From assembly GCA_001692895.1 (NCBI GenBank), contig KV748181.1, forward strand, positions 682,001-746,000: a DNA stretch of 64,000 bases, read 5' to 3'. Source of the DNA: Cenococcum geophilum 1.58 (Eukaryota > Ascomycota > Dothideomycetes > Gloniales > Gloniaceae). Position numbers and translations under genes: made by a program. This document shows positions 13,975-55,830 of this stretch, piece by piece. A model generated the notes under the pieces. That model was not told the DNA's origin and searched no databases. It saw only the letters and a program-made list of their open reading frames with translations. Each line of letters opens with the position of its first letter. The stretch's first letter is position 1.

Positions 13975-14115
13975 GCCGTAGTCGGAGCTTGCTATAAGGG
14001 AGCTTACTATAAGGGAGCTTGCCGTAAGGGAGCTTGCTATAAAGGAGTTTACCACAAGGGAGTTTACTGCGAGGGAGCTTACCGTGAGGGAGCTTGCCAT
14101 AAGGGAGCTTGCCGC
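13975..14115. repeat. 15-bp tandem repeat array in the Helitron 5' region
   Basis: About nine copies of a 15-bp unit close to GGGAGCTTGCYRTAA run head to tail. On the minus strand, the Helitron sense, the unit encodes a Leu-Pro-Tyr-x-Lys pentapeptide. Because 15 is a multiple of three the array stays in frame. On the plus strand it makes an open frame (13972-14283) with no other support. Confidence 0.8.
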
Positions 14116-14125
14116 AAAAAAGGTG

Positions 14126-14190
14126 GTATTAGTGGTAGAATAGGTATTAGAGGTAGAGTAGGTATTAGCAGTAGAGTAGGTATAGAAGCT
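14126..14190. repeat. Short degenerate tandem repeat (GGTATTAGNGGTAGAGTA-like)
   Basis: Three to four 18-21 bp units resembling GGTATTAGAGGTAGAGTA follow the 15-bp array directly. They lie inside the Helitron 5' region and probably belong to the same low-complexity stretch. Confidence 0.6.
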
Positions 14191-14690
14191 AGTTCCAGCA
14201 AGAACGCATTTAGGCCATCTAGAGTACCTCTTCTACTGTATAGAGCTTTATCTATAGTATATAGCAGAGGAGTAGGCGAGTAAGCTTTACCACGCCAATT
14301 AAGAATGCGGTGCTCCCGTTATATTACCCTAATTATCTTCCACCGTTAAGCCATTTTAGGGGTATCTTAACTATTCTAGCCGCGAGGCAGGAAGGCGTTC
14401 TCGGTATCGTTTTTAGGTAGAGTAGTTCGCTAGCACCTTATAGGATAATTCTTAGTAGTAGAACCTAACTCTATAAGAGCTCTCCGCTTATTTAAATTAT
14501 ATTTAGAGGCCTAGAAAAGTAAGCAGAAGTAAAAGTAATATATAGGGAAGACGCGCCTTTAACCGACACAACTAGCATAGCTTTAAAATCTTCTTTAAAG
14601 GGCCGTTCTTAATAAAGTTAAGGCGGGGCTTATAGATATAGCACTTGCTGCACTTAATTATAGTAGGGTCTGCTATATTTTAATATATAT

Positions 14691-15531
14691 AGTGGTATTA
14701 ATAGAGGTATATTAGGATATTTTAATGTTCATAATATTTTAATATTCGTCACGTGGATTCTGCCATAACTTACCGCGCGCAAGTTTTTTTTAACCAATTA
14801 GAAGCGAGATTTCTAACCAATCAGAAGTTGGCTTGGCGGAAGTTTGAAATCCAGGACCCCCAACCCGAATATATAGACCACTCGTACCTCGGGTCAATAA
14901 TATCACTAATTATAGTACAAAAGAACGCTTCTAATGATGAGGATTTTGTTCCACCGACTCAATATCCTTAACGGCCAAAAGGAGAAGGAAAAAGCCCTTC
15001 CGGAGCCTCATTCGACGACGAGGACGATTTTAGTGATTGCTCGCACGGGCCACCGAATTGAGGCACCCATCGGTGCAAGGGATAAGCCTATCACGAGTCT
15101 TGGCATGGTGTTGACTTACCTTCCTGCCGCATCTATACCTTTCCTTCCTTCCGCGGCCGTGATCACTGGGTTAGGCGTTCATCCGAGCTAAAAAGGATGA
15201 ATTGGTTTTCATGTTGAAAAGCTGAGGCTGCAGCGGAAGGTTTTTGGTCATGGGCTCCGATCGATGCGAGGCTAGAAGTGCAAGTTAGAATAAGTATTAC
15301 GGTAACCAAAGAGGAGTTTCTTGCCATTCTAGTAAGAAGTAGATTTAGAGACGCTAGGCCAGTTATATCCTTTCAGATCCACCATGCGTTATTGCTCAAC
15401 CCAGCATTGATCTCGTCCATGCATTGACATTGTAAATCGAGTTCCAGCCAGACGACATTAGAAACACTCCCTACGCCAAGTCAAGAGAGATGTAGGTAAA
15501 ATAAGACAGCACCGGCTCCAACAAGAACCTT
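14691..15531. other. Boundary and 3'-flanking DNA of MAK16; no gene recognised
   Basis: Composition changes from TA-rich to normal at about 14740. An imperfect direct repeat containing AACCAAT(T/C)AGAAG occurs at about 14796-14830 (two CCAAT-like copies). Open stretches of 72 and 85 codons at 14753-14971 and 14934-15191 look like no known protein. The part nearest 15531 is probably the MAK16 3' UTR and terminator region. Confidence 0.4.
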
Positions 15532-16613
15532 TCAAACATAGGCAACCTCCCGCGCCGAAGGCTCTTTCTCGATTTCGTACTCTATTTCCCGACGCGGTCC
15601 CTTCGCGCCCTTCTTCTTTGGCTTTGGTGGAGGTCCCGCAGGACGTTTCCTTTTAAGATTCCCAAGCACTTTCTTTAGGGCCTCGTTGTCGTCTTCATCC
15701 TCTTCTTCGCTCCCATCACTACCCCCGCTGTCTTCTTCGTCTTCTTCACCACCGGATTCCTCGTCGGGGCTTTCCCCACCCATCCAGTCTTCGAAATCTT
15801 GCAGGTCATCATCCGATTGGCCCTCGACATCACTAACGTACTCGACTTCACCCACACCTTCCTCTCTCTCCCTCTCAAATTCTCCTTCAACCTCCTCTTC
15901 CTCATCTTCAATGCCTTCATCCAGGTCTTCATCCCTCGTACCCTCGCCTCCTCTCTCTAGTCCCTTCAGAACCTTCTTCCACACATTTTCCTCCACATTC
16001 AGCGGTCGATCTCCATAAGCACCGCTCCTCAGCCTATCAATTAGGACCCTCTCAATTGCGCGCTCGACCTTCGCCGCCGCTTCCGCCTTCCTCTCCCTTC
16101 CATCTTCCCTCCTCCGCACCTTCGGCGCCAGACGCGGCACCAACTTTTCACCGAGCCTGTCCTCCTCCTTCGCCAGCCGTCTCGTCCGGATACCAACCTG
16201 CGTGAGACGGGTTAAACGCTGCTTGCACTTGTGCACGAGGAACTTCGGCCAGTATTTTAACTGCCCATCGACCTGTTCGAGGGCTTTTGCGTAGTTGGAC
16301 GACAGCTTGATCCGCTCCCACCACTTGCTGGGCAGGTGTGCGCGCTCGATGGTCTTGATGTAGAGGTACAAGGTGCCGGTTTCCGGGTGGGCACGAATGG
16401 TGGCGTAGCGTGAGTTGGCGAGGGGGCAGGATTGCCGGTTGCAGAAGCCAGTGACATTGTATTCGTTCCGGCAGAACGTCTGGTTTTTTGTGGTTCTGGG
16501 AAACAGCCGTTAGTTTGAGGATGTGAGAAAACAAGTGTGAAAATGCCATACTTGAGCTTGTAGGAGCAAAAGTTATGCCCGACTACATTCCAGACAATCT
16601 CATCGGAGGCCAT
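15532..16613 (-). CDS. MAK16: MAK16, nucleolar 60S ribosome-biogenesis factor (2 exons)
   Basis: Exon 1 is 16613-16552 and exon 2 is 16495-15532. The 55-nt intron starts GTATGG, has an AACTAAC branch site and ends CCCAG; splicing gives 341 aa. The protein begins [20 protein letters not shown] and continues [18 protein letters not shown] and [20 protein letters not shown], near-identical to Mak16 across fungi. Four N-terminal Cys (16, 29, 39, 44) form a probable metal site. Residues ~1-120 match the L28e-like domain and the rest the Mak16 domain, ending in a long Asp/Glu-rich tract and a Lys/Arg-rich nuclear-type tail ([18 protein letters not shown]). Mak16 acts in early pre-60S particles in the nucleolus. 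It is slightly longer than the ~306-aa yeast protein, mostly from the acidic tract. The ATG was chosen because it opens the conserved N-terminus. It shares its upstream region with MSS1. Confidence 0.96.
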
Positions 16614-16844
16614 TGTGAGATTGTCGCTAGCTTGATTCAATCGACGGTCTTGATATTCGTAGCTGATGTCGATTAAATGTGGCGGTCGAATTTGAGTTGA
16701 GAATTATTTTCGCGAAATCTTGGCATCCTCCGGGTCGCGGTGTCAATGTTTTTGCGCGGTCCATTCTCGGCACACCACGTTCCGAACAAAGACGACTCGC
16801 ACTTCATCGCCACCATGTCTCCATAACACTTCATTGCTCTCGGT
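16614..16844. promoter_or_regulatory. Divergent MAK16/MSS1 promoter region
   Basis: Only 231 bp separate the two start codons, so both 5' UTRs and any core promoters must fit here. No convincing TATA box was seen. The pairing joins cytosolic ribosome assembly with mitochondrial tRNA modification, so co-regulation is plausible but inferred. Confidence 0.6.
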
Positions 16845-19085
16845 ATGAGAGTTCTCCTTCGTCCACCAAACCATCTACTACGAATCCCATCTCGTATCAA
16901 CCTCCAAGCTCCTCTCGGGATCGTTCAGTTGGGAATTGGACGCACCGCGGGCACAATCTGCAGCAATGCGTTCACACCGCCTATATCGAGGCTCCTGAGC
17001 CTGCGTGAGAGACGGCTCTATCATTCTGGCATTCCCAATGGAACCCACGGCGAAGATACGACCATCTACGCCCTCTCCACCGCCCCCGGAAGGGCCGCCA
17101 TCGCCGTGATACGCATATCAGGTCCGGCATGCACCCAGGTTCGTTCTCGCACCCACCCACTGCCATATCTCCGAAACCCATACCAACTCAATTCTACCAC
17201 CAGATATACCGATGCCTCTGCCCCTCCAAACCGCTCCCCAAGCCGCGCCACGCGACCCTCCGCCGCCTCTACACCCCGCACCTCCCCCCCCCCACCCTCC
17301 TCGACTCGGGCGCTCTAATCCTGTTCTTCCCTGGCCCCAACACCGTCACCGGCGAGGACGTCCTCGAGCTACACGTCCACGGCGCCAGCCATCGTGCGCG
17401 CCGCCCTGGCCGCCATCCCCACCTGCGCCGCTCCCCTGCCAATCCTCTCCCAACCCCTCCCCCAACCCCCACCCCATCCGCCCCGCCGCCCCCGGCGAAT
17501 TCACCCGCCGCGCCTTCACCAACGCGCGCCTCTCCCTCCCGCAAATCGAAGCCCTGCGCGACAGCCTCACCGCAACCACCGAGCAGCAGCGCCTCCTCTC
17601 CCTACGAACAACCTCCGGCTCCGCCCTGACGGCCCGCTACGAAACCTGGCGCGCCGCGCTCCTCCACGCCCGCGCCGAGCTCGAAGCCCTGCTCGACTTC
17701 GCTGAAGACCAGCACTTGGACGAGTCTCCGCGCTCGCTGTGCGGCTCCGTCGCGGCGCAGGTGGGGCGGCTGAGAGCGGCGATGCGGGCTGTGGCGGTGA
17801 ATGCGGTTAGGGGGGAGTTGCTGAGGGGGGGCATTGGGGTTGCGTTGTTGGGGGCGCCGAATGCGGGGAAGAGTAGCTTGCTGAATCGGATTGTGGGACG
17901 CGAGGCGGCGATTGTGTCGTGTGAGGCGGGGACGACGCGGGATGTGGTTGAGGTGGGGGTGGATCTTGGGGGGTGGTTGGTTAGGGTGGGGGATATGGCT
18001 GGGCTGAGGAGGGCGGGGGTGGTTGGTGGTGGAGGTGGTGCTGCTGCTGGGGAGGGTGTTAGTGGTGGCGATGATGCTGAGAAAGAGGGAGAGAGACAGA
18101 GCGCGGATGCAGTCGGGGCAGTCGAGCAGGAAGGGATCAAGCGCGCGAAGCAGCGAGCGCTGTCATCAGACGTCGTGATCGTCGTGGCCGACGCCAGCGC
18201 GCCCCTCGACCCCGAAGTCACGGTCACAGCAAAGCAATGCGTGGAGCAGGGCATCAACGTCGTCGTTGCTATCAACAAGGCAGATCAACTACCTCACTCC
18301 CCCCCCTCCTCCCTCGCAACCTCCACGCAGCGCTGGCAACGAACCGTCCACTCTGCCCTCGGCGTCCCGCGCGACCGCATCTTCTTCATCTCGTGCAAGG
18401 ACGCCGACGCGCCTGCCGCCGACGCCCAGAACCCCGACCCGGGGCACATCCAAGCTTTCCTGCGCGGCCTGATCGCGACGTTCGAGTCCATGACGGCGGC
18501 GCTGGTTCCTGATCTGCCCGGCGCCGACGCCGACGACGACGTAACCCCTCCCGACCCGTCCGTCTGGCAAGAGTCCCTCGGAGCGACGGAGCGCCAGCGC
18601 GTGCTGCTCGACGAGTGCATCGAGCACCTCGACGCCTTCCTCGCCTGCGTCCACGGAAGCGACGGAACGGCACAACGGCAGGAGCCCAGCGGAGCGGACA
18701 CAGACGGGGCAATGGGCGAAGCGGACGTCGATGTCGTCGTCGCGGCCGAGTCGCTGCGCGCTGCCGCGGAGTGCGTGGCGAGGATCATGGGGCGCGGCGA
18801 CGCCGGCGATGTCGAGGAGGTCCTCGGCGTTGTGTTTGAAAAGTGAGTGGGTTGCTGATGAGTCATTTGCCACACTATACCCATGCCCGTACCCATACCC
18901 ATACCCCCACCCCTCTCGTTCCCTTTGTCGTTTGAGTCAACACCCGTTTGCTTGCGCCGCAGCCGCCTCCTGCGCGGGCTTGGCCGCCCTCAAATCCTTC
19001 CCGTGCCGTTTTGTTTCATGTTTCAGTCTGGGGGGCATTGTACTGATCAAGGATTCGCGAGGACAGGTTTTGCGTGGGGAAGTAA
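16845..19085 (+). CDS. MSS1: MSS1/MnmE-family mitochondrial tRNA-modifying GTPase (3 exons; two apparent frame breaks)
   Basis: Exons: 16845-17138, 17204-18842 and 19067-19085. The family acts with Mto1/GidA to modify U34 of mitochondrial tRNAs. The N-terminus is basic, as a mitochondrial presequence would be. It is followed by the folate-binding domain (DTTIYALSTAPGRAAIAVIR; PGPNTVTGEDVLELHVHG), the helical domain (PGEFTRRAFTNARL) and the G domain: P-loop GAPNAGKSS, GTTRD, DMAG, NKAD. Intron 2 (224 nt, GTGAGT..ACAG) must be removed to gain FCVGK before TAA, the family's catalytic C-terminus. Two odd points: the frame shifts near 17381-17386 and again within 17430-17475, in C-rich sequence with no AG acceptor, so the coding length (1952 nt) is not a multiple of three; and the G3 motif is DMAG, not DTAG, followed by a Gly/Ala/Glu-rich insert of roughly 40 residues. 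Either the assembly has errors or the gene is broken. Family call is very sure; integrity is not. Confidence 0.9.
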
Positions 19086-19789
19086 CGGGGGCCGTTTTCG
19101 ATTTTGTTGGAGTAGGAGATACAGAGAAGGCGCGGAAGGAAAGCAGAAGCAGAAGCAGAAGGAGGAGAAGGAGAGGCAGAAGAAGCAGACAGGCATAGAG
19201 AGAACGGCAGATAGCAACGACAACGATGGCGACAACGCATGAAACGCAGAGTAAGGACGTAAAAATGCAGATTCGAACGCAGTAGATAAAACACAGAATG
19301 CAGAAGGCAATCCCGAATCCCAACCCTATGAGCTCCGTCGCAATGCTCGCTGAAATGAATGACACCCGAACCCAGACCTGAACCCGAACCCGAACCCAAA
19401 GCCAAACCTGAACATGAGCCCGAACGGAAACGCAAACCCAGAAATGAACTGCTCAATGTCACATACCGAACGCGAACAAGAACGCTACACGAAACTGAAA
19501 CGGAAATGCGAAGCGAGTAGTAATACAGAAAACGGAGCGAACGACCTCTTACTCCTCCCCCTACCCTCCCCGCTCCCCTCAGCGTCCCTCGCCTGGGAGG
19601 CCGTCTCGCTGTCGGTGATGGGATATGTATATTTTTTGATGCGCCGTCATATGTACAAGGCAGGGTTGGAAAGGATGCGTGTTATAACAGCATCGTGAGA
19701 TCTGTGCTGGATACCGCTTTCAGCGCGGTTGTGGTTGTAGTGGTGGTGGTGATGGTGAAGTCACGGCTCGGGGTTCGAGGCCGCGCTTT
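19086..19789. other. Tail-to-tail intergenic region, low complexity
   Basis: This region lies between the MSS1 stop and the downstream end of the minus-strand micropeptide locus. It holds purine-rich runs (19130-19200), a degenerate hexamer tract and a GTGGTG tract (19730-19757). Open stretches on both strands (up to 148 codons) are repeats of Leu/Ser or Glu/Arg typical of simple sequence and match no family. Both 3' UTRs probably end here. Confidence 0.5.
19366..19440. repeat. Degenerate AACCCG/AACCTG hexamer tract
   Basis: Successive imperfect 6-mers (GAACCC, GAACCT and variants) run for about 75 bp. It is not an exact telomere repeat (TTAGGG in most ascomycetes); it looks like ordinary degenerate simple sequence. 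Confidence 0.6.
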
Positions 19790-19813
19790 TTAGTTGTATC
19801 CTCCGCGACCCAT
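19790..19813 (-). CDS. Micro-ORF copy 2, heptapeptide MGRGGYN
   Basis: ATG, six sense codons (GGT CGC GGA GGA TAC AAC) and TAA. It encodes exactly the same seven residues as the copy 175 bp upstream, but with different third bases at both Gly-Gly codons and Tyr, and a different stop. The start context ATCACAATGG has A at -3, a good fungal context. No other ATG lies in the 151 nt between the two copies on this strand, and sequence outside the codons is not alike. Downstream ATGs open only very short frames. Codon-level conservation limited to the ORF implies selection on the peptide. I do not know this peptide from any named family; it could also be a pair of regulatory short ORFs on a longer transcript. 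Confidence 0.6.
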   Translation of the reverse strand: MGRGGYN

Positions 19814-19964
19814 TGTGATGGCTAATGGTATCTGGGTGGAGTAGGGCGCCTCTTTGGCTATGTGGGCTTTGTTGGTGCTCGGGTTGGAAAACCGGAGGTG
19901 GATGTGTGTGGGCGAGAACCTAGTGGGAGGTGGTTCGCGGGTTTCAAATGATGTGAGATAGCGT

Positions 19965-19988
19965 CTAGTTATAGCCGCCGCGACCCAT
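19965..19988 (-). CDS. Micro-ORF copy 1, heptapeptide MGRGGYN
   Basis: ATG, six sense codons (GGT CGC GGC GGC TAT AAC) and TAG. It is the first ATG after a leader of 316 nt with no ATG on the minus strand. The start context TTCCTCATGG has a pyrimidine at -3, weaker than that of copy 2, so leaky scanning or reinitiation could allow both to be translated from one mRNA. The 24-nt ORF matches copy 2 at 20 of 24 bases; all four differences are at third positions and leave the peptide unchanged. The function is unknown. Confidence 0.6.
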   Translation of the reverse strand: MGRGGYN

Positions 19989-20338
19989 GAGGAATAATGT
20001 GAGGTTGATTTGACTTGAGATTGAGATTGAGAGGCTTGAAGTGACGACTTGGAAGTCGATTGAGAGTGTAGAAGTTTGGTAGAGAAGTTTGGTTTGAGAT
20101 TTGCAGGAGAGAGTCAGAAAATGGCGAAGGACAGAATCAGAGGACTTGAAGTAGGGAAACGCGGCAGTTTGGACTGTTGCAGGACAAAAAAAAAGCGCGG
20201 AACTACTGAGCGACTGACTCGACTTGACTCAAAGGACTTGAATGTAACAAATAAGAGGAAAAGCGAAGACAAGAATGGAAGAGCTGTACTGGTTGTTGTA
20301 TGATCATGACTCCAGGCCGCAACGCTTACCTTTATATC
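19989..20338 (-). promoter_or_regulatory. Leader and TATA-like promoter of the micropeptide locus
   Basis: On the minus strand a GATATAAA box (20338-20331) is followed by a pyrimidine-rich, CTC/CAA-rich stretch that includes a T9 run near 20190 and TCTCAATCTCAATCTCAAGT near 20010-20030. Such leaders are usual in well-expressed filamentous-fungal genes. There is no ATG from 20304 to 19989. A 34-codon ORF begins at 20307 and would be included only if transcription starts upstream of it. Confidence 0.45.
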
Positions 20339-23300
20339 AGTCTGTCCAGGCGACCGCAACCGCAGGCAGGTCACCCCCTTCGCCAGCCAGCGGCGCCCTA
20401 GCCACTGGGTGGTAAGCCAGGCATCGATAGACGACAAGGCAAGGTGTTCAGTCATAGCGCACGCCCGGATTGTCGTCTTTGGCTCGGGGCCAAGCCTCCC
20501 TCTCAGCAGCGAATCTGCGGCGTGGATTGGCAGATGCGCCGCGTTTGGGATGTTCGCTGGCTGGCCGTTGGCTCAGACAAGCGAAAGAGAAAGATATTAC
20601 CCTCCCATAGCCACGACAGCCACTCCCGCGCTGCGCCGTCAGTGCGCTGAACCCTTGTTCAGCCCTCTTCGCCGGGGCCTTGCAGAGTGCAGGGGAGAGC
20701 TGCGAGGCGCGACTGAGGTGAGCATGAGATGTGGGAAGCTAAATTTTGACCGCGAATAAGGGCGTGCAACCCCATCGCCCGTCTGCACGGCACGCCGACT
20801 TGCACGACATATGGCCAGGGTTTTTCTCGGTGATGCAGCGAACGGGGGATGTCGGTGCCTGGGATGGATGCGATGCGATGCGATGCGATGTTGCTGCACC
20901 TGCGCTGCACTGCATGCCCCACGAGGCGACGGACGGCGAGGGAAAGCAGTGAACAGCGAACGAGCGAGCGAGCGAGAGCATGCCTTCGGAGTAGGGATTG
21001 CCAGTATGTCGCTGAAAACATGCGCAGCACAGTCATAGCCCATCATACAGTATCATCTCGTCCCTTCCACCAAGGATTGATCCCGTTGGAGTGGGAGCGA
21101 TGAGCAATGAGATCTGGGATGCACGTTTGGTGGTGCAACAGCGCGGCCATGGCTGTTTGATCGCCGTATCCAACGCCGCGGGTACAGCCTTCTGCACGGA
21201 TTCGTGACACCGACCGCACTTATTTTGCATACTCTTGCACATTCTTGTTTAGCAAAGAATACGGGCGGACCTTTGATACTATTATTCTACCCTGCGTTTT
21301 TTCCTTGCAAGTGATATAATTGACAAATATGCCTTACGCCATCCCTGTAGCACATGCGCACTTTCATCGCCCTATAGGGATGCATTCTGGGGAACAGACT
21401 CATCCACTCATCGGTTCTGTCATACGTGCATTTGCATTTGCGAAAGCGAAAAGTCCACCATGGACCAGTCGCATTGCGTATCCCGGCTCTCCGAGAACCT
21501 GCCACCCTTAATGTTCGCCTATCCGCAACAACTCATGTGCTGAAGCGGAGGGCGCAGAGCGTTGAGGCCGCCTTCTCTCAGCTGCCTCCGTGTAGTGGAG
21601 TCTGCGCTATGTTCTAGGCATGCACAACTTGGCATCCTCGCCGTACGTGCGTACAAACCACCGTCAAGTATTACTACCGGAGCATACGATTGCCGGGTAC
21701 GTTCTCGTGCTCGGATTTGCTGGTGCGGCTGCCAATACGTGCGATTTCTAGTCCGATTAGTCCAACCCAGCTACGGCGCCCTCCCTTTCCCAGCTGCATT
21801 TTTCGCATAGTGCAAATCAACTCGCTGCGTTGTTCCGTCTCAACCCAGAATTCCCAAAATATCTCTCCCCCCACTCCCCCCCCCCCGTCCTCCGCTTTTC
21901 AAGGTACCCGCGGAAAGCGGAAGCGAGTCCGCCTGTCGGAATTCGTCTGTTGGATCCGCTTCGGGGGTGCTGCGGCCTGCCGTTCGGGTCTGCTCTAAGT
22001 TATCTGGGGCTGGGCTGGGCTGGTGATAAGCTTGGCTGGGCCGTTGGGTCGGCCGCCCTCGTGGCTCTCGTCGCGTAACCAACGAGCAGACTCGCAGGCA
22101 CATTGCGTTTTCCTGTGCGGCCGCGTTCCTAAAGTTGGGGGCCGAGACCTTTGTCCCGGAAGTGTGTGTGTATTTGGAATTAGGCATTTTTTTCTGCAAA
22201 ACGGGCATCCAGCAAGGACTCGTCGTCGAGAAAAACCGCAGGTCAGGAAATGTTGTTTCGTTTCGCCCGTTCGTGCCTCATCGTCGGGCTCAGAAGATCT
22301 CACCCTCTCCACTGGACTCCCACTACACCACCGCAAAATCGTGTGAACCGCTGCAGGTACCCAGCCTGCTGTGCATGGTGGTGCTGCAAAAATAAGCTCC
22401 CCGCGCGCGGCCAGCTGGCATTGGTCGCCGTTTGCGCGGTGGTGTGGCATTGCACGGGCCAGCTCAAACATAGGGCTGACGGAAAGGCTGTGCCAACCCC
22501 AATCTGGAATATGACAAGGGTCTGCGGCCGTTTGAGATAAATTTCACGAGGTCCGACGAGCTGTGATTGGACGGGAGTGGTGGCAATATTATTTCACTAT
22601 TCTTTTTTAGGCAGAGGTTGATTTCAAACAGGCCTCTAGTCTAGATCGGGGTCATTTTGCGTGGCTGGTGATCATTTGCCTCCTGGAATCTCCTGATGGG
22701 GGCTATTTTGGGGCCATTACTCAGGCCGTGCAACAGGTACTGTATTTTTCTGCAGGAGGAGACTGCAGCCAAGCTTGTGATGACTTACCCTCAGCTCTGC
22801 TGACTTACACTGCAATCGATACGGCTGAGGCTCTACGCTTGACCGATAACTAATCTTGCATCTTTACCATCACTCTCGAGCCTCTTTTGTCACACCCCTC
22901 CGTCGCACGAACTGCCTTCCACTCCTTCCGTGACACGACATTTATTGAATCCAGTACATAGCCGATTGTCTCAACGCTGCGGCTCATTGCAGACCGGAGG
23001 TTCCTCGGGAGTTCGTATCGAACGAGGATGAAGGTGCCAAGTGGTAGCAGCATGCTATGACAACCTGTGATATGCCGTGTTCGGCCAGGCCTAGTGCTCT
23101 ATTACGCCGCTTTCAGGCCGCAATTGCGGACCGCTTTGTTAGCATCACGGACAAAAGTGATGAACGATCCTTGTGAGAAACATGGAGTATGATGCCTTGT
23201 GTCGCCGGAGGCTTGGAGTCACGATAAGCGGCGATCCGGGGGTGATACAGTAGGAGTCGGCGGGCTGGAGTCAGCGAGTTGGATGCCCTAGCCCACCACC

Positions 23301-24278
23301 CAGCTGGATTCTCCTTTCTATGTCAAAGCGTGTTGCAAGCCGATGTTCAAGTATTCGAAATAGATATGAGATTTCTCACCGGAGATGAGCGCTTGCTAGA
23401 TGGATGGTGGTATCTAGGTGACCGGGTGCCTCCAGTGACCGCAGAGGCTTAGAATCACATCGTCCGGAATATAGAAAATTAATATGGCGCAGACACAGCG
23501 CAAGCCACACAAATCCGAATCTAGAATGCACTACGTAGGAGGGAGATCAAACAAGCCATTTACCCAACCGCCCGTAAGGCATCTTTTCCCTCCAACATTA
23601 GCGCCAAGGCAAATCCGCGGCTCGGTCCGTTGCCTCTCTGGATCAGTGCATATGGCGCGGATACCATGCTCAGCCCTATGAAACGAGCCCGAGGCCTGCG
23701 TTGGAAGAAAGGCAAAGCAGGTGCAAGGGGAACCGAATCCTTCAGCCTGCGAGGCCATTTCCAACCCATAATAAGCACGTCACACGATCTTGACAGGGTA
23801 TGTAAAATCAAAGTGTGGCGTCATACCTACCGAACGCCTAAATCCTTCAGGTGCGCCAGATTAGACGACCGGTGTGGTTCGTGCTATGCCACAAATATGT
23901 GAACATCACACGAGAAGTGGCGCGGCCGTGGCTCGTAGATTTATTTACCCCATTAGTATGGTTACATCTGTCTCGGATGACAGGTAGGACAGCTACCCGC
24001 AAAGAGTTCCTTATTCCCCCCCTCAAGGCAGACTGTGGGGGCTACGCCAGAGGGTGGGGTGGAGGGCCTGATCGGGGTCCGTAAACGGAGTTAGGGCATG
24101 AGGTTCCAAACGTGCAAGGGTATATGAAACGGCGAACTTCTATTAGTGGTATGGAGAATAGGTGGATCGACGTAGCCCATCACTTTTCTATACATATACT
24201 CATAAATAGGTCATCAAGTATTTCGTTTCAGAAAATACGGGTCAATCCATCTATAGACACCCCACGACGTATCTATAC
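20339..24278. other. Long intergenic region, no gene recognised
   Basis: Nearly 4 kb of normal composition with many short overlapping open stretches on both strands, none with a recognisable motif or splice structure. The best ATG-initiated one is 67 codons on the minus strand (23053-22850), without similarity I can name. A GATGC microsatellite (20867-20890) and a GCGA-type tract (20959-20977) are present. The right-most few hundred bases are the HUS1 3' flank. It may contain promoters, non-coding transcripts or a gene too divergent to read by eye. Confidence 0.4.
20867..20890. repeat. GATGC pentanucleotide microsatellite
   Basis: Five head-to-tail copies of a GATGC/CGATG unit with no mismatch. 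Confidence 0.9.
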
Positions 24279-25693
24279 TTAAGCGCTGTAGGAGCTGACG
24301 TAGTACTATATGCATGGGGGTCAGATACGCCGGTTCCGGCTAAGGAGTATTCGAAATAGTGCACGGAGCAAAGCCACTTACTGTCAAGACTGACTCGTCC
24401 AATCCGTTGTCATTTGGAAGATAGACATACAGTATCAATGCATGCTCATGACAGAAACCTGTAGTTTTATTAGTATCATTGGACCACGATGTTCCATTTC
24501 CGGCCTTCGATGCGGCCGGCGGCAAAGACGCTGCTCACACGCGATAACCCTCCCGCCCAACCGCCCTACTGACATGACCTTGCCCCAATCTCTAGCATCA
24601 ATTCGGACAGTTGCCCAGCCTTCCTCACTGCGCCCGTCTGCGCTCCCGAGTTCCTTCATCTTCGTGCTCGGATGATCCCGAATGCCCTCCTCGCCGCCCA
24701 CAACCTGGCCCGGATCGAGCTCCGGGTTGCTCAAGCCCGTCCACACGCTGCTGATACTCATCGCATCGGTCCTGGTACTCAGCCTGAGGCAACCATGCAT
24801 ATTAGCCGCCATCTCCAACCTCGTCCTATGTGTCGTGGCAGCAGCAGCAGCAGCCGCGCCGCCAACAGCGCCGGACTTTGCCCCAACGAGCGCCAACTTC
24901 GTAAAACGGTCGCTTATGCCCTTGAGCTGCAGCAGCGGGGGCAGGAGGATGTGGACGTCCGGCTCGCGACACCGCGGCTCGTGCAGTCCGGAGACTGTCT
25001 CGGGGCTGAGGACCCGCACGGGGACTTCCTGCGTCACGACGGTTTCGCGCTCGCGCGAAAAGGCGGAATCGAAGCTGCTCGTGCCGCCGTCGAAGCCGGA
25101 CCCGTTGCCAAACCCTTCGTCATTGTTGCTGGCGCCCCCTGCCGGCAATGCGCCGTGCGGAGCGCTGGTCGAGGTCGTGACGATCGTGAGAGCGAGAAGA
25201 GGCACGTTGTCCTTCTTCGTCAGGCGAATCGAGGCGGAGGTGGCTTGCAGGGCAGACTTGAGTGCGCGGTGGAGCGAGGTCAGAGGCACTTCGAGGTTTA
25301 TGACGTTCTGGGCTGCGGATTGGATCGTGTAATTCTCGAAAATAGTGTCCTAAGCGTTCGCGTACAGGTCAACGAGTGACATCTCAGGAACGATGCGAAG
25401 ATACGAAGCAGCGCCACGCTTACGATCGACAAGACGCTGTGGCGAAAGACAATTAGCTAGGTGTCAAGAGTGCCATCTATTTTAGACTTACGCCCAGACT
25501 TGCGTGCCCTGCTCCGGTATTATTGTAAAGCAGACTTGGTCTTTGCTGAGCTTAACCCACGCGAGAGGCCCAAGAGAGTTCAGCGATGCCGTGAACTCTG
25601 GATAAAACGTGTCAGAGCTGTGTAAAGTAGGAGATGGATGATATTCATACTCGTAAATGTCGATATGTTCTGAATAGAAGCTTTGAAGCGCAT
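24279..25693 (-). CDS. HUS1: HUS1, 9-1-1 DNA-damage checkpoint clamp subunit (6 exons)
   Basis: Exons, in order: 25693-25651, 25597-25492, 25436-25424, 25349-24539, 24458-24382, 24305-24279. The sum is 1077 nt, exactly 358 codons plus stop. Introns of 53, 55, 74, 80 and 76 nt all have GT..AG ends, with branch sites such as CTGAC and TACTAA. Splicing gives an N-terminus starting MRFKASIQNISTF, then FTIIPEQGTQVWAVLSI, a mid-segment VRVLSPETV..LHEPRCREPDVHI, SANMHGCL-type and SSVWTGLSNPELDP, and a C-terminus ending LTYYVSSYSA, the pattern of fungal Hus1. Hus1 forms the PCNA-like Rad9-Rad1-Hus1 ring loaded at damaged DNA to activate Rad3/Mec1 signalling. A Ser/Gly/Asn-rich insert near residues 105-130 looks like a loop. 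Exon 3 is only 13 nt (encoding most of AVLSI) and could easily be missed. No frame break was seen. Confidence 0.95.
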
Positions 25694-27178
25694 GTTGGAT
25701 CGAGAATGTGTGACGAAAGAGGGATCCCGACAATGGCACGCGAGTGCGGGGATCGTTCAACGAACCACATACATTTCAAGAGTCTTCTCACCGCTTCTAT
25801 AGGGCTGCAGCTTAACGTTCATCACACAACCACGTTCGCTTGAATATCTTCATGTATTATGTATACACAACGGCCTAGGAAAGCTCCTGGTAAACCGTTC
25901 ACAAACGAGGCTACTCCCTTGTAGCTAACGAAGTAAAGAGCTGATGACATGGTCATCCAAGAATTTGCTGAGTGAAGTCTTCAGGCTATTACTACACCGT
26001 GAGAGTAGCTTCTGTTGAGGAGTTTTTTGACCACGTTTATAGAACAGAAGTAGAGAATCTGTTTGCGAAGTTGCTCTCTACCATCTACAAAACACCCTAG
26101 TATCGGAATCTCTCAAGCCCGGTGCTCTGAGGATATCCGAACATGAACGTCTCCCTTAAACAGTCCGATCAATGCCCAAGACTGAGATCCACTACAAATA
26201 GGCCCTTGTGATATTACCTGGCGTCCATTTAAAGTTGCTGAAGACTGTCTAACAGGAAGGACCGTGTCTCTTCGGCAATATGGTCAAACAAGCTAAAAAG
26301 TGTAGTATTACGCGTAGATCGTAATTTCGCTCGTTGACTCCGCTTATATATCATAGCAATGCCAACAGGTTTGACCGGGGCCTCACCAGGACCTCCTTTC
26401 GAGTAACCCAATGTATGCTCCACAAGACCGCACAGCAGTAGCAGAAAACAAGCAATCAATATTTATCGTCCCTACGACGGATCCGCCGGGGGCCGGGGCC
26501 TTCACATATTCAGTTGAACACAGAGGCTTTCAGTTCTATGCCTAGGAAACAATAGCAGCAAGTATCGTCCACGAGCCGCCTTCTGCTATTAATCATGCCC
26601 CTAGGAGTTGATCATCGATAAAGGAGTCTCAAGACGGACATCCGCAAAGTGATTCGGATACTCGAGAAAATCAAGACGTCCAGGGGATAAGCGAATGAAC
26701 GGACAACCAGGGAACCAGAAGAATATCTTTGCTGGTCAGTCCGGACGTTCTAAGGCAGTGGGATAATCTGCAGTGAAGGAATCACAGCCTTCTACTTCAC
26801 CCTTTGCCTTTGAGTCTCATCTACCACATTGAACATTTCCTAGAAATTGAAACCGTATGATACACAAATCAAAAGATACCTCATTCACAAAATATGGACA
26901 TAAATATCCCCATTGAGAAAGTTATAGCAACTGGACCCGCGCTGCCGCGCCATTACCTGGGAAGGTAGTGTGTGTTGCCAGCTCGTTCTCCAATTGAGTG
27001 TCCCCACTCTACGTGTTTCTGCTTTCCCCGCTCTTTTATTTTCAATTTCTCAGCTTCTCAAAAACGACACATCCTTTGCTGCTTTCTTCCTGCTTCTTTC
27101 AATTTCCTCTATTTATGGCATGCCAAGCCGACCACTACTTGCCATAGACTGCTACCATCGGTCTGCTCCGAAACGTAC
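25694..27178. other. Intergenic region between HUS1 and the HET gene
   Basis: About 1.5 kb with no convincing gene. A 76-codon open stretch on the minus strand (26459-26229) begins at TTG with a hydrophobic run that resembles a signal peptide, but it has no ATG and no other support. The part next to 27178 is the 3' flank of the HET gene. Confidence 0.4.
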
Positions 27179-29269
27179 TTATCCTAACCGAATTTCCTGC
27201 CATGACTTCACCAATACTGGACGGCGCGCATAGAACGAATTCACCATCAAGGGCGGGCCATCTTCATCATCATCATACTCCCCGACACCGTCCGCCCCGT
27301 ACATCTGGTAATCTATAGGACGAATCCAACCAAACCCGACCCTTTCCATCCTATCACCAACATCACAAACAACCATGAGTGCGGGGCCAGTTGGGCCGGC
27401 GAAGCCTTCCGGACTTGGGGGCTCGCGAGCTAAATGAATGCCGATGTACGCTTGATCGGTTGACAATTGCATGCTTGTCGTAGGGTGGAACCGCCAATGC
27501 AAATACCCGCCATCTTCGAGCTCAACTCTAGTCTCGCATTCAACTTCCCCGTTGATTCTACTGTAGCTTCGCCTGTACTGAATAGGCGTCGTCCACGCTG
27601 AGATGCGAATGATATTAGAGAGAGCTGAACTCGCGTTGAGCTTTTGTAATGATTCCTGAGCTGTATCTAAGTCCGCGATTTGACCATCTTGGAGTTCCAA
27701 CCTCAATTTAATGCCGGGGTCGGTCCGAAGATACTTCACTTCATTAAATTCCCAAGAAATACGTCCAAACCAACCAGCCCAGGACCAGCTAGGGAAACCC
27801 GGTCGCCTGTTTGATGTCCCTTCTAAATCCCAACAGAGGCCAATGAAGAATCCAGTGCAAGCGTTCCACGGGGATAATTCAGCAGTATCGGTTGCAAGAC
27901 GCGCTCGAGTTTTTGGTGGCGGTAAGATAGGAATACCAGAACAGTGACCAACTTGGTGGACACTTTCAAAAGCTCGCAGTACACCTAGGATGCCATTGAG
28001 GATATCCGAAGCATGCGAGAGGGATTTCTGCGAGTACTCTTCAACGCGTTCGAGGATCTCCCAGGGACTAGCACCAACCTCTCTCGGAAAAATTCCTATG
28101 TTCTCACCCTCGCAAAAAGATTTTTGAAGAGATTGTCCGGATTTAAGGTGCATTTCGTGAAGAGGGAAATTCAATGCCTCGCAGCAATACATGCCGTAGC
28201 ACTCATAGTAAACTTGCTGGTCGGTGAAAACTAGCCGCCTTCGGGATAGCAATCCTTCTTGATATGTCCACCCTCTGGTTATCCACGCAGACTTCTTGAC
28301 CAGATCCCGCGGATCGCCCAGCGCTGAAATAAGAAAGTGTTTCCCGATACGTGCGCAACCTTGCTCGCTCCGATTTCGCTGTCCCACGCCTGGCAGACCG
28401 TACGTTGGATCTTGCCCTGCAACCGCGATGATAGTGATCTCAGAATTCCGGTAGATCAGATCCATTTTGTGGACCTGCGCGGACTTTTCTTCGGCGGATT
28501 GCTGATTAATACAGTACCGGTCGACCCAAAGGAACCGAAAACCGAGTTTACGTGTTGCTGTGATAGCATCCTCAATTGTGGGAGGCAATCCTTCCGGTAG
28601 TGACTCGGAGTATTCGACGATTCCTGAATTTGCTCCCCACATGTAGCTCAGGGACACATATACGTGGTTCGATGCCGGAACAATTTTCCGAGTCTCACAG
28701 TCAATTAATTTCATGAAAGGCACAGAGGTGGAAGATGTTCTAGCTGTACAAGTTTTGGTGTGCATCTCTTGACACTGATGGAGCCAGCTCTTTAGAATTT
28801 CGAAGTCTATTGAGTCGGGCTTTAAGGAGCGAACGGGCGTTGCGTCGTGATGTTGAGGAACAAAGAATGCGCATCCATCAAAACCTATCATATTCGTGTC
28901 AATTGATTTCCAGCCCAACCGAGGATCCCTTTTACTGGAAAAGGATCGCAGATAGTAGGTAGAGTCAGAGCTCCTACACTCCGGAGGTAGTGAAGTAGCC
29001 AGCAAGCCGCACAAAGAGCAGGAATCGATCGCCCACTTCTTTACTGGACCCAGACTCTTTACTAATTGACCACGAACGGTAAGATGCTCCCTCGATAGAG
29101 CCTCGTCGAGGTCAATCTTCGCGCATCTCTCACAGAGCTCATTGCCTTGCCGTCGAGGATGTCTTAGTCGTTTGGGTGATGGCGAAGTTTTGGACCGGTT
29201 CTCGCCTTCATACTGGTCATCCGTTGGCCCCAACTCTTTTCGCTTTCTCTCTGGGATTGAACCGATCAT
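27179..29269 (-). CDS. HET-domain protein (heterokaryon incompatibility family)
   Basis: A single exon of 696 aa. The frame is open upstream to 29365 but has no earlier ATG, so the ATG at 29269 (MIGSIPERKRKE) is the likely start. The N-terminus is basic (KRLRHPRR) and has two Cys pairs (CERC 46-49, CSLC 84-87). The HET domain spans about 203-345: YVSLSYMWG at 204-212, LWVDRYCINQ at 247-256, MDLIYRNSEITIIAVAG at 269-285 and the WTYQEGLLSRRRLVFT region at 334-349. The rest is the variable C-terminal part usual in these proteins. HET proteins trigger cell death or growth arrest when unlike strains fuse; some respond to NLR partners. No NACHT, WD40 or ankyrin segment is visible here. It lies about 0.8 kb from the transposon block, and accessory HET genes often sit near such borders. 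Partner and specificity are unknown. Confidence 0.9.
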   Translation of the reverse strand: MIGSIPERKRKELGPTDDQYEGENRSKTSPSPKRLRHPRRQGNELCERCAKIDLDEALSREHLTVRGQLVKSLGPVKKWAIDSCSLCGLLATSLPPECRSSDSTYYLRSFSSKRDPRLGWKSIDTNMIGFDGCAFFVPQHHDATPVRSLKPDSIDFEILKSWLHQCQEMHTKTCTARTSSTSVPFMKLIDCETRKIVPASNHVYVSLSYMWGANSGIVEYSESLPEGLPPTIEDAITATRKLGFRFLWVDRYCINQQSAEEKSAQVHKMDLIYRNSEITIIAVAGQDPTYGLPGVGQRNRSEQGCARIGKHFLISALGDPRDLVKKSAWITRGWTYQEGLLSRRRLVFTDQQVYYECYGMYCCEALNFPLHEMHLKSGQSLQKSFCEGENIGIFPREVGASPWEILERVEEYSQKSLSHASDILNGILGVLRAFESVHQVGHCSGIPILPPPKTRARLATDTAELSPWNACTGFFIGLCWDLEGTSNRRPGFPSWSWAGWFGRISWEFNEVKYLRTDPGIKLRLELQDGQIADLDTAQESLQKLNASSALSNIIRISAWTTPIQYRRSYSRINGEVECETRVELEDGGYLHWRFHPTTSMQLSTDQAYIGIHLAREPPSPEGFAGPTGPALMVVCDVGDRMERVGFGWIRPIDYQMYGADGVGEYDDDEDGPPLMVNSFYARRPVLVKSWQEIRLG

Positions 29270-30068
29270 AATGAATAATGAAGAATCTGAGTTGGGTTGT
29301 GAAAGGGTCCTGCGAGGTAATCGAAAGAAGGACAGATAATTGAAATGTACGTTGCAGCCCCACAAGTAAAATTAATGCGGCACAGATGGAGAGTAACCGG
29401 CCGAAGACCCACAGCAAGCACTTTATCCGATATTGAGTGGAGACACGCGGGCTGAGGAATCCCGTGGACACCAGCACGAAGGTAACTGAGTACGAGCCCT
29501 TATTACCTGAACAAAGCTAACCTGTTAGAACGCCGCAAGCGAGGGCAAATATTTTATCGGTAGAGCCTCGTACAGAATGGATATCTACCCGCCTTTCACA
29601 ATTCTCTCCCCATCCTGAGGGTGCAGGATCAGTTTAATACGACAGTAACCTTCCAAAGGTGGAGGCGAATGTATTGAAAATAGAGTTACGGCGGTAAACC
29701 TGACATCGCACGACATTTTCTGGAACTGCGTCCATAACTAGCCGTAATGTAATGTATTCTATCATATAGATTCAAGCCGCAATCTATGATGGAAGGGGGG
29801 GGTGATGAGACTGGCAAGAGGCTGGACGAGTCTTACCTGTAAGGGTTCAGCTTCCCCGTCTTCCTCGATGAGAACATCCAAACCCTCTTACTGAAGAAAT
29901 CCATTTCTATATAACTTTTGAAAGCTGTGGTCCTCGTGGTTTTTAAGTCTGCAAGAGTCTGGGGCACAACGCAGGGACGACAGGGGGCAAAAGGGCAGAC
30001 TAAAGCCTTGTGTACTCTCAATGATAGTGCAGAGCTGGAGATGTCGTAGGCCCAACGTCCTAGAAGTG
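29270..30068. other. Upstream region of the HET gene up to the transposon border
   Basis: Presumed HET promoter and 5' UTR next to 29269. Beyond that there is no recognisable gene; the open stretches (86 codons minus at 29477-29217, 62 codons minus at 30021-29833) have no support. Composition stays normal up to the hAT target duplication at 30069. Confidence 0.45.
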
Positions 30069-30179
30069 CCTACGTGCAGTGTTTTTATCCATATTCAATA
30101 TCAATATAAGGCCGTATTGATATTAATATTGAATCACTCACTCATATTAATAGATTATTAAATATTAAATATTAATTTC

Positions 30180-32800
30180 TATATATAGAGCCTTCGCATG
30201 GTGTTCTTATGATAATCGGGCTCTGCGGAGCTTTAAAATTCGACCGATATCTCACTGGTATTGACTGCCCGGCTGATCCTCGGTCAGCCGAAAAATTACG
30301 TGTTCAGCCAGCCACCTGGGTCAGATTCGAGGATCTCCTTAGCGCCACCAGCGCTAAGCTGAGGAGATTCGCGTATCCAGGGCCACCTGCTGATTGAGCC
30401 GCTGATCAACGCCGACCGTAGGGTAATTAGGGCCATTGAGGCCCTAAGTGTATATAAAAAAGTCCTCCCTGCCTATCCTTAATCGCGGCAGCATATCTGC
30501 TATTATACCTACTATATAAGATGGCGCTGACTAACCGCGTAGAGATTAATATCGCCAATAATGCCGAATTACGCGCTAACGCGCAGTATGTTCTCGCCCT
30601 TACGTATGCCGCAAGGCCTAAGAATACGTCTTTAACGTACAATCCAAAGCAGAAGGAGTTTAAGGTAATATCCCCCCCCCTTCTAAAAGTATCGCGGCCC
30701 GTAGCTAACGCGTTATCCGGCTCTAGGCCTTTTATAAACGGAAGCAGTACTATAACAGCAATACCGTTACGGAGGATAAGCTACTTCTCTTCCTTATTAA
30801 GGAGGTTGCAAGCTGGCCCTTAAAAGGGAAGAGCTATAAAGCCAATATTAACGTACCCTAAGAGGAAACGCGGCTCTCGTGGCGGTTAGTTTACGGCTAT
30901 ATTACTACTCTAATGGACCTCTATTAGATGTAGAAAGCTATAGAAATAAATAGCCACCCGTTTCCGCGGGAGGACAGCGTTAGGGAGTACCTAAAGACGT
31001 TATAGCGGAGGGACGCGTAGCGTAAGAAAGAGNAGTTTGCCGATAAGGGTAGAGATACCCTCCTTAACGGCTATACCGAGGACGAGTTCCAGAGCGTCTG
31101 CCGTAAGCTCTAGGCTAGGGGCGCCGCCTTATCCCTAGAGTGCTACTTCTATACGCTTATTAATATCCTACTAGGCCACTATATACTTACCCGTAGTAGC
31201 AATAAATGCTCCGCCGAGATCTTAGATCTATTTACCTTTAAGTTTAAGGGTAAAGGCCCTACGCGCTATATACCCTTAATATTTACTATACGCGTAGGTA
31301 AGTAGAACTAGTACGGCCGCCTTAAGACTATTAGGGCCCTACGGAATAGGAAGCTGCTTATTTATATACTTAGCGGGCTAGCTTTCTATCTTTTATACCG
31401 CTAGGATCTTAGTACGGAGCCGTTTCCGGACTTTAGTAGGTACTTAGTATGGTATAATATACGCCTAATTAAGGGCGGTAGGGACCGTAAGGCAGCCCTC
31501 TTATATAACTCGCAGCGAGATTAGGTCGTAAAGGCCTTTTAGTATATTAGCGTCTTCTTAGAAAAGAAGACGCATATTGGGCGGAGCGCTAGCGCCAAGA
31601 CGGCGGAGCTAAAGGGGGTTAGCGAGGACCAGATTTGGCGCGCTAGGAGGTAGAACTAAGAGTAGATAGTAGGCTATTACTTAAACTCTCTCCCATAAGA
31701 GTTTATAAGGTTAATAGTAGGGCACCCCTTATAGATAGGCTGCTTCGAAATCCGCCGTATAGGTATTATACCGCCTAATATACTGCTATTAATAATATAG
31801 CCCAAACTGGATAAATAGAAGGGCCGTTTTAGCCCGTAGCTATACTAGATTAATAACCTTGCCGCTACGGGGGTTACGAACCTTCTCTTTTACCTCCGCG
31901 AGGTTATTTTATAAGACTTAGTAGCCCTCCACAAGATGTTCCTAAGCTATTTAGTATAGAGCCACCCTATCTTCCAGTATAAGGCGTATAAGGCCTTTAT
32001 ATAGGATCTAGAGCCCTACCTATAGGAAGAGGGGAGCCTAAATCAGCTATTAATTCTCTACTAGGCTATGCCACTTCTTACTAACTAACTAAAGGCTCTA
32101 CGCGCCGAATATAAGTAGACAGCTAGCGAGGTTAAGGGCTTATTAGACTATCTAGATAAGTCCTAGTAAGCTTAGTCTTTATAGCTTTAATTACTAACGT
32201 CCGAAGGCCTTATATTTTAACTAGAAGCCCCTTTAGCTATAGCTGCGGTAGTAGCTGCGGCATAGCCTTAGGGCCAGTCTACTAACCCCCCGTATCCGCC
32301 TATAGAAGCAGCCCCTTTAGCTTTATCTATTACGGGATCTAGCAGATATACGTCTGCCTAGGCAAGCGCTATAGGCTCTCCTTCCTATATAGCTTCGCCA
32401 CCGCCGCTACTATAACAGCTATAGCCGTAGCTGCAGCTAGAGCCCGGGTCTAGGTCTCTACCTATATACTATATAAGCCGCGCGGTAAACTCCGTATAGG
32501 CCCTTTAGCGTAAGTGGACTAAAGGGCTAGAAGGTAATCCTTTTATAGTAGCGCTAAATTCTAAATAGGGCAGTAAATAGCGGGCCGGCCAGCAAAAGGA
32601 GGTTTAATAGTACTCCCTACGGCTTAAGGTTATTAAGGAGATTAAGCGGGTCGCGTAGGTCTAGAAGGTTAGTAAGGAAGCGGCTATATAGCAGGTTAAT
32701 CTACGGCAGGAGCAGATACAGTACTTACTAGATTAGCTTTATAAACGGCTTTAAGCGGGTAAAAAGGCTTTAAAATAGTTATATATATAACTTCTAATAA
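30180..32800 (+). mobile_element. Crypton-F tyrosine-recombinase transposon, decayed
   Basis: An open start at 30521 (MALTNRVEINIANNAELRAN) leads to about 45 codons open, then a frame with many stops to about 32790. Recognisable blocks: HPFPREDSVREYLKTLQRRD (30957-31015), FADKGRDTLLNGYTEDEF (31036-31090), the HxxR motif in THIGRSASAKTAELKGVSED (31568-31630), the likely nucleophile Tyr in GYYLNSLP (31672-31695) and a GCR1_C-like tail (YSLRLKVIKEIKRVAQ, 32609-32660). This is the fungal Crypton-F arrangement, YR recombinase plus GCR1_C DNA-binding domain. Flanks at 30190-30510 and 32880-33238 are less mutated and may be its non-coding ends; no short TSD could be fixed. One N occurs at 31033. It was probably killed by RIP. 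Confidence 0.8.
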
Positions 32801-33238
32801 AATACTAAGAGGTCCTCTATTAAAACCTTCGTCTATAGCCCCCTAGGGGCTCATTTTAGTGCCGTATAAGTTTAATAGGGTGCTTTAGGGTAGTGGCGCG
32901 CAACTTAAAACACGAATATCTTTATTAACCCACAGCCGATTCTTACCATTCTAGTGCAAGTAGAAAGCGCTCAGCAGGCTCTACGCATAGCGCTTGACGG
33001 GTGTTAAGAGTATGGCGTTGCTGGCGATCAAAAATCGACTATGGATATGGGGTAACATCCACAGTCGCTGAACGCACGGACCTCCTCGCCCGCGTAATCG
33101 TGACTCAGCCGCTGATTCAGCTATACAAATGTACCTGTGGATATACTATTGCTACTAGTGATGTTAAGCATGCGCATATAGAGCTCCGTTTCAGAAGGCT
33201 CTGTAAAGCAATTAGTAGAGGTAAGCCTTGGTTTAATT
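32801..33238. other. Less-decayed non-coding segment right of the Crypton
   Basis: From 32880 the composition returns toward normal. An 88-codon open stretch (33001-33267, non-ATG start) has no family resemblance. This may be the 3' end of the Crypton or an intervening host fragment. Confidence 0.3.
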
Positions 33239-33299
33239 TCGCGATACATATATTTATCCTCCTATAACTGTTATAGGAGAATAAATATATGTATCGCGA
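33239..33299. repeat. 61-nt near-perfect hairpin abutting a transposon end
   Basis: Arms of about 29 nt (left arm TCGCGATACATATATTTAT then CCTCCTATAAC; right arm the reverse complement with one mismatch) flank a 3-nt loop. It ends four bases left of the terminal CAGGG of the second hAT-like element. Confidence 0.85.
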
Positions 33300-33303
33300 T
33301 TCA

Positions 33304-48482: not shown

Positions 48483-48655
48483 TGTTGGTATTATAGGGTA
48501 ACTCACCAATGCTACTTAAGTAAATATAGTGAATGTTAGTTATAAAGCTTATTGTTTAGAATTAGGGGGTAGGTGAGGAACCTAAGGTTCCTCACTACGC
48601 TAGTGCCGCGGCGATACGTAATGACACGTAACGACCGCTTGCCTTATTCCCAATA
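48483..48655 (-). repeat. copia-2 3' LTR (173 bp)
   Basis: Begins TGTTGGTATTATAGGG and ends ATTCCCAATA; holds an internal near-palindrome, GAGGAACCTAAGGTTCCTC. Confidence 0.85.
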
Positions 48656-54398: not shown

Positions 54399-54571
54399 TG
54401 TTAGTGTTATAGGGTAACTCACTAATGCTACTTAAGTAGACATAGTGAATGTTAGTTATAAAGCTTATTGTTTAGAATTAGGGGGTGGGTAAGGAACCTA
54501 AGGTTCCTTACCACGCTAGTGCCGCGGCGATACGTAACGATACGTGACGACCGCTTGCCTCATTCCCGACA
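54399..54571 (-). repeat. copia-2 5' LTR (173 bp)
   Basis: Begins TGTTAGTGTTATAGGG and ends ATTCCCGACA, the same length as the left copy. Confidence 0.85.
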
Positions 54572-55620: not shown

Positions 55621-55830
55621 TGTAACGGCGCTACCGCACGTTACCTGCCAAATTCTGCTATATTCTACCGACTTACGATTAGCCCGCCCAAAGCTAGCGC
55701 CTTGGCGGCTCACCCTATATATTTATTTACATCGGTCCTAGCGACCCCTTTTCCTTCTCTTTAGCTTAGTATCTTCGTAATATAGCATTCTATAAGCTTC
55801 GGTTTAGAGGCATTTATATAAGCCGTAACA
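55621..55830 (+). repeat. gypsy-2 5' LTR (210 bp)
   Basis: Begins TGTAACGGCGCTACCGC and ends AAGCCGTAACA. Confidence 0.88.

Follow-up and report, generated by a model that had tools for sequence, protein, structure and literature searches.

Two 24-nt ORFs lying close together on the minus strand of a Cenococcum geophilum 1.58 contig each encode the heptapeptide MGRGGYN followed by a stop codon, which raises the question of what kind of gene, if any, would specify so short a product twice. The window analyzed here is a 64,000-nt stretch of this contig (KV748181.1), and all coordinates refer to it (Table 1).

Two short ORFs encoding one peptide

A re-reading of the sequence bore out the coordinates, the doubly encoded MGRGGYN, the 151-nt spacing and the four third-position differences given in a preliminary description of the locus. 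The differences between ORF1 and ORF2 fall at bases 12, 15, 18 and 24 of the 24, in two Gly codons, the Tyr codon and the stop codon, and all are silent. The surroundings, which had been described as unrelated with identity stopping at the ORF borders, match at 6 of 30 nt upstream and 6 of 30 nt downstream, which is the chance level; the likeness runs from ATG to stop and not beyond. The first 11 nt are common to the two ORFs, and this string, ATGGGTCGCGG, occurs only at these two sites in the window. Each ORF has its own start and stop, the two stand in different frames, and the residues that precede the Met (PLAIT and LTLFL, five shown per frame) are unrelated between the copies, so MGRGGYN does not look like the tail of a longer conserved protein. 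The locus thus has the layout by which polycistronic micropeptide genes are recognized, at least two tiny ORFs for the same or a near-identical peptide within one short stretch. Because the third positions have drifted and the peptide has been kept, it seems to be the product, or its synthesis, that counts, and one peptide written in different synonymous codons, in a stretch without a recognizable ordinary gene, is what a tiny peptide gene would be expected to leave. Of the seven third positions open to silent change, three are the same in ORF1 and ORF2, which leaves some likelihood to a copying event of more recent date, restricted to a very small segment.

Table 1. Features of the locus and its neighbors, in coordinates of the window
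Feature	Position	Strand	Description
ORF1	19965–19988	minus	ATGGGTCGCGGCGGCTATAACTAG; MGRGGYN-TAG; start context CTC-ATG-G (C at -3, G at +4)
ORF2	19790–19813	minus	ATGGGTCGCGGAGGATACAACTAA; MGRGGYN-TAA; start context ACA-ATG-G (A at -3, G at +4)
Intercistronic spacer	19814–19964	minus	151 nt, G-poor (19 G); 0 ATG vs 0.92 expected from base composition
Putative leader	19989–20304	minus	316 nt, C+T-rich (34 G, 102 C, 108 T); 0 ATG vs 2.65 expected
TATAAA, box-like sequence	20331–20336	minus	Read from the sequence; putative function
Putative 3' UTR	19600–19789	minus	From base composition per 50 nt; sharp rise in G on this strand immediately below 19600; putative end of unit
Leader element	20184–20200	minus	Inverted repeat I2; complementarity to the ORF2 end over 17 nt (88%), including 11 nt without mismatch
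Partner of leader element	19781–19797	minus	Spans the end and stop of ORF2; a lead
MAK16	15532–16509	minus	Stop-to-stop frame, Pfam
MnmE/MSS1-like GTPase	17110–18846	plus	Stop-to-stop frame, Pfam
HUS1	24435–25349	minus	Stop-to-stop frame, Pfam
HET-domain protein	27179–29371	minus	Stop-to-stop frame, Pfam

The pair is beyond chance. Identical pairs of short ORFs (6–40 aa, less than 500 nt apart on one strand) appeared in 0 of 3000 first-order Markov simulations of the 19-kb gene island (14–33 kb), a count in which any peptide qualified and not just MGRGGYN, and a degenerate MGRGGYN pattern that matches twice in the window gave no match in 100 shuffles. Among 860,706 four-base changes to ORF1, 774 (0.09%) keep both the peptide and the stop. 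These figures are somewhat flattering, since it was oddness that led a reader to pick the pair, seen in one genome from its sequence. The remaining four of the five groups of identical short-ORF peptides in the window are all found past 41 kb, their copies separated by thousands of bases. Such far-apart peptides of the AT-rich part, found on the plus strand at 48509–48533 and 54425–54449 and on the minus strand at 55788 and 61760, are probably copies of a repeated element.

The putative transcript and its surroundings

Both ORFs lie in a G-poor stretch of about 0.7 kb downstream of the TATAAA, with 103 G in 705 nt (20304–19600). The lowest G count per 705 nt on the minus strand of the island (14–33 kb) is 102, windows starting at 20307–20311 being among those that reach it, and at 19600–19551 the strand is at once G-rich (28 G). 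The argument from G poverty is weakened by the plus strand, where the stretch from 15410 on, antisense to MAK16 for most of its length, is nearly as G-poor (104 G in 705 nt vs 102 in the unit); two plus-strand clusters also exceed the unit in C/G ratio, and the G asymmetry is supportive at most as a transcript mark of the unit. The likelihoods that we attach to the readings below are unmoved by this, since the codon pattern is their main basis. The TATA-like box and the ATG-free leader of the preliminary description are both present, but an ATG at 20307, just above the ATG-free stretch, opens a 34-codon ORF, so that calling the leader ATG-free hinges on the start of transcription: with a start further up, the transcript would carry a 34-codon uORF. 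Of 3738 windows of 316 nt in the island, 309 also lack an ATG, and the ATG-freeness of the leader alone is a weak argument.

No fungal-type intron was found by pattern (donor, CTRAY branch site and YAG) on the minus strand from 20304 to 18850, nor with looser donors from 20360 to 18850, in scans that are blind to introns with unusual branch sites. After ORF2 come ATG-started ORFs of 3, 23, 1, 29, 74, 49, 33 and 9 aa, none between 19789 and 18903 being longer than 74 aa, with the limits of the transcript drawn from base composition. The earlier statement that no long ORF follows agrees, for ATG-started ORFs, with the sequence down to 18903; from 18902, an ATG-started minus-strand frame reaches up to 202 aa inside 18294–18989, mostly antisense to the MnmE coding frame. 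Pfam gave no match for any of the seven minus-strand frames tested from 18294 to 21052, among them this frame and those at 19790–20113, 20114–20572, 18937–19452 and 19016–19681. Searches of Rfam at gathering thresholds returned no match in the whole window, and a tRNA search with bacterial settings found none.

An element in the leader is complementary to the region around the ORF2 stop (Table 1). This repeat was picked out of five inverted repeats listed in 5.7 kb, and an 11-nt inverted repeat is present in 36 of 2000 Markov-simulated sequences. The helix between leader and ORF2 has pair probabilities of 0.22–0.32 and is absent from the minimum free energy (MFE) fold, and the complementarity is at most a suggestive lead. 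A structured RNA was considered and rejected, the folding stability of the unit not being unusual (z of -0.68 against 60 simulations; z of -1.33, with 1 of 20 shuffles as good).

The coordinates of the neighboring genes are those of stop-to-stop frames and not of gene models. The best match of MAK16 is PDB chain 8i9p_Ce (376 bits), which we take to be from Chaetomium, and three other MAK16 sequences score 202–265 bits; taken with the HET domain, this ranking is consistent with a filamentous ascomycete. In the roughly 4 kb between the unit and HUS1, ten frames of at least 100 aa, with the plus-strand frame at 23525–23902 left out, gave no Pfam match. Only one stop-to-stop frame of at least 150 aa (21995–22543) lies wholly inside 20350–24430, a span that might be one large control region. 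Positions 19364–19438, which lie past the presumed 3' end of the unit, hold a degenerate 6-nt array of ACCCGA type (10.3 copies at 19364–19425) that resembles an interstitial telomere-like repeat. The whole neighborhood belongs to a GC-richer gene island at 14000–34000 (about 42–61% GC per 2 kb) flanked by AT-rich stretches (about 27–39% GC), an arrangement that would be as in genomes with repeat-induced point mutation (RIP).

Searches for relatives and comparison with known systems

A search with the MGRGGYN pattern, in which position 3 may also be Ser and the last codon may also be TGG, matched four stretches in bacterial or archaeal contigs and three in viral contigs, with one match apiece. 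Two of the seven encode exact MGRGGYN-stop (L001 and L006), four encode MGSGGYN-stop and one has Trp in place of the stop (L002); never paired and silent on fungi, they are taken as chance matches and not as relatives. The paired pattern with a spacing of 137–165 nt, which recovers the pair of the window itself, was absent from viral contigs, and HUS1 and MAK16 used as baits for fungal sequence among the viral contigs found no relatives. The string MGRGGYN is absent from the open-access literature searched, a scope outside which most subscription papers and bioRxiv preprints fall. The string GRGGYN occurs in open-access papers that, by their titles, concern nanocarriers, DNA-peptide conjugates, nuclear localization signals and nuclear import receptors, and MGRGGY with four variants in papers whose titles name elastin-like polypeptides, condensates and disorder in RNA regulation. 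Among the titles listed in open-access topic searches, none concerns a fungal dicistronic micropeptide gene, which does not imply absence from print.

Among known systems with peptides of this size, the uORF of AMD1/SAMDC, which encodes the hexapeptide MAGDIS, and other peptide-dependent uORFs act through short peptides in a sequence-dependent manner. The likeness lies in a peptide of six or seven residues; here, however, no downstream main ORF was found and there are two copies, not one. ENOD40 of plants is an RNA with two tiny ORFs, as here, but the peptides it encodes are unlike one another and the RNA itself is structured, whereas the peptides of the present locus are identical and its fold is not clearly beyond that of shuffles. 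The tal/pri/mlpt gene of insects produces an RNA without a long ORF that carries several tiny ORFs for near-identical peptides with the motif LDPTGxY. The layout of tiny ORFs is shared, with near-identical peptides there and identical ones here, yet the peptide and the kingdom are different, the fungal unit has two identical 7-mers and is known from sequence alone, and with MGRGGYN in place of LDPTGxY it was rejected as a tal/pri homologue. Passages in PMC6428570 and PMC10635573 deal with Mlpt/Pri peptides, Ubr3 and Svb. Repeated identical short peptides do occur in fungi as KEX2-processed, alpha-pheromone-like products (PMC6339444). Those repeats lie inside one processed and released precursor, whereas each copy here has its own start and stop; a KEX2-processed secreted repeat peptide was rejected, with neither a signal peptide nor a single precursor frame at the locus, separate starts and stops in different frames, and unrelated residues before the Met.

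Interpretation of the locus

The best explanation, to which we give an even chance, is a small intron-less Pol II gene of about 0.7 kb whose sole selected product would be MGRGGYN made from two cistrons, that is, a trans-acting micropeptide gene. The earlier proposal of selection on the encoded peptide, in a two-cistron layout, gains support from the substitution pattern, the sharp borders, the lack of introns by pattern and the lack of a convincing downstream ORF. Its suggestion that the peptide might be secreted finds no support: a signal sequence would not fit into seven residues, and the residues before the Met are unrelated between the copies. An intracellular role is therefore likelier. 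Leaky scanning and reinitiation after a short ORF are established translation biology, and ribosomes scanning the leader could start in part at ORF1, with its C at -3, while others would leak past it, or would translate its seven codons and reinitiate a further 151 nt on, and so start at ORF2, with its A at -3. Both cistrons would yield the same peptide. The initiator Met is known as a rule to be removed before Gly, which would leave GRGGYN, a small basic peptide whose likeness to the RGG motif is a resemblance only. Its action would then be on an intracellular partner, either protein or RNA, and this trans-acting step is the least certain part of the scheme.

The same peptide twice in series would also suit a sequence that acts on the ribosome, and we regard it as rather unlikely, though worth weighing, that the cistrons act in cis, the nascent heptapeptide or its termination stalling or releasing ribosomes so that RNA decay or downstream translation is controlled, as with peptide-dependent uORFs. 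The unlike start contexts (C vs A at -3) and the complementarity of a leader element to the region of the ORF2 stop point in the same direction, whereas the low pair probabilities of that helix, missing from the MFE structure, and the lack of a convincing main ORF, with every ATG-started ORF before 18903 at or below 74 aa, point away from it. A pair of short ORFs behind a long leader is a typical feature of uORF-controlled mRNAs, and the frame that begins at 18902 could be the main ORF of a longer or spliced mRNA. This is improbable, however, given that the frame is mostly antisense to MnmE and lacks a Pfam match, that four other nearby minus-strand frames lack one too, and that introns were not found by pattern. 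The main ORF that uORFs of a protein-coding mRNA call for was not found downstream on this strand, which offers short frames and then frames mostly antisense to MnmE and without a Pfam match.

That the first 11 nt are identical, and at two places only in the window, is what a duplicated DNA or RNA element such as a protein-binding site, merely ORF-like, might leave; we consider this very improbable, since the copies differ at third positions only, swap TAG for TAA and are alike from ATG to stop. Chance coincidence, or functionless recent copying of about 24 nt, likewise has a low probability: the case is a single pair in a single genome, picked by a reader seeking oddities, but the simulations and the rarity of silent-only divergence both speak against it. 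Taken together, the readings other than the trans-acting gene and its cis-acting form are rather unlikely.

In its widest form, which we put forward tentatively and with some doubt, the trans-acting reading would make this a fungal, perhaps Pezizomycotina-wide, dicistronic gene in which MGRGGYN serves as a developmental or stress regulator in trans, controlled by the upstream region of about 4 kb that is without recognizable genes, as an independent counterpart of tal/pri. If the gene is real, MGRGGYN would rank among the shortest peptides known to be translated directly, and peptides so short escape the length cut-offs that gene finders usually apply. Selection on a heptapeptide that a single fungal transcript encodes twice would suggest an origin of polycistronic micropeptide genes outside animals and plants, and the lower size limit of a functional ORF could be approached in a simple system.
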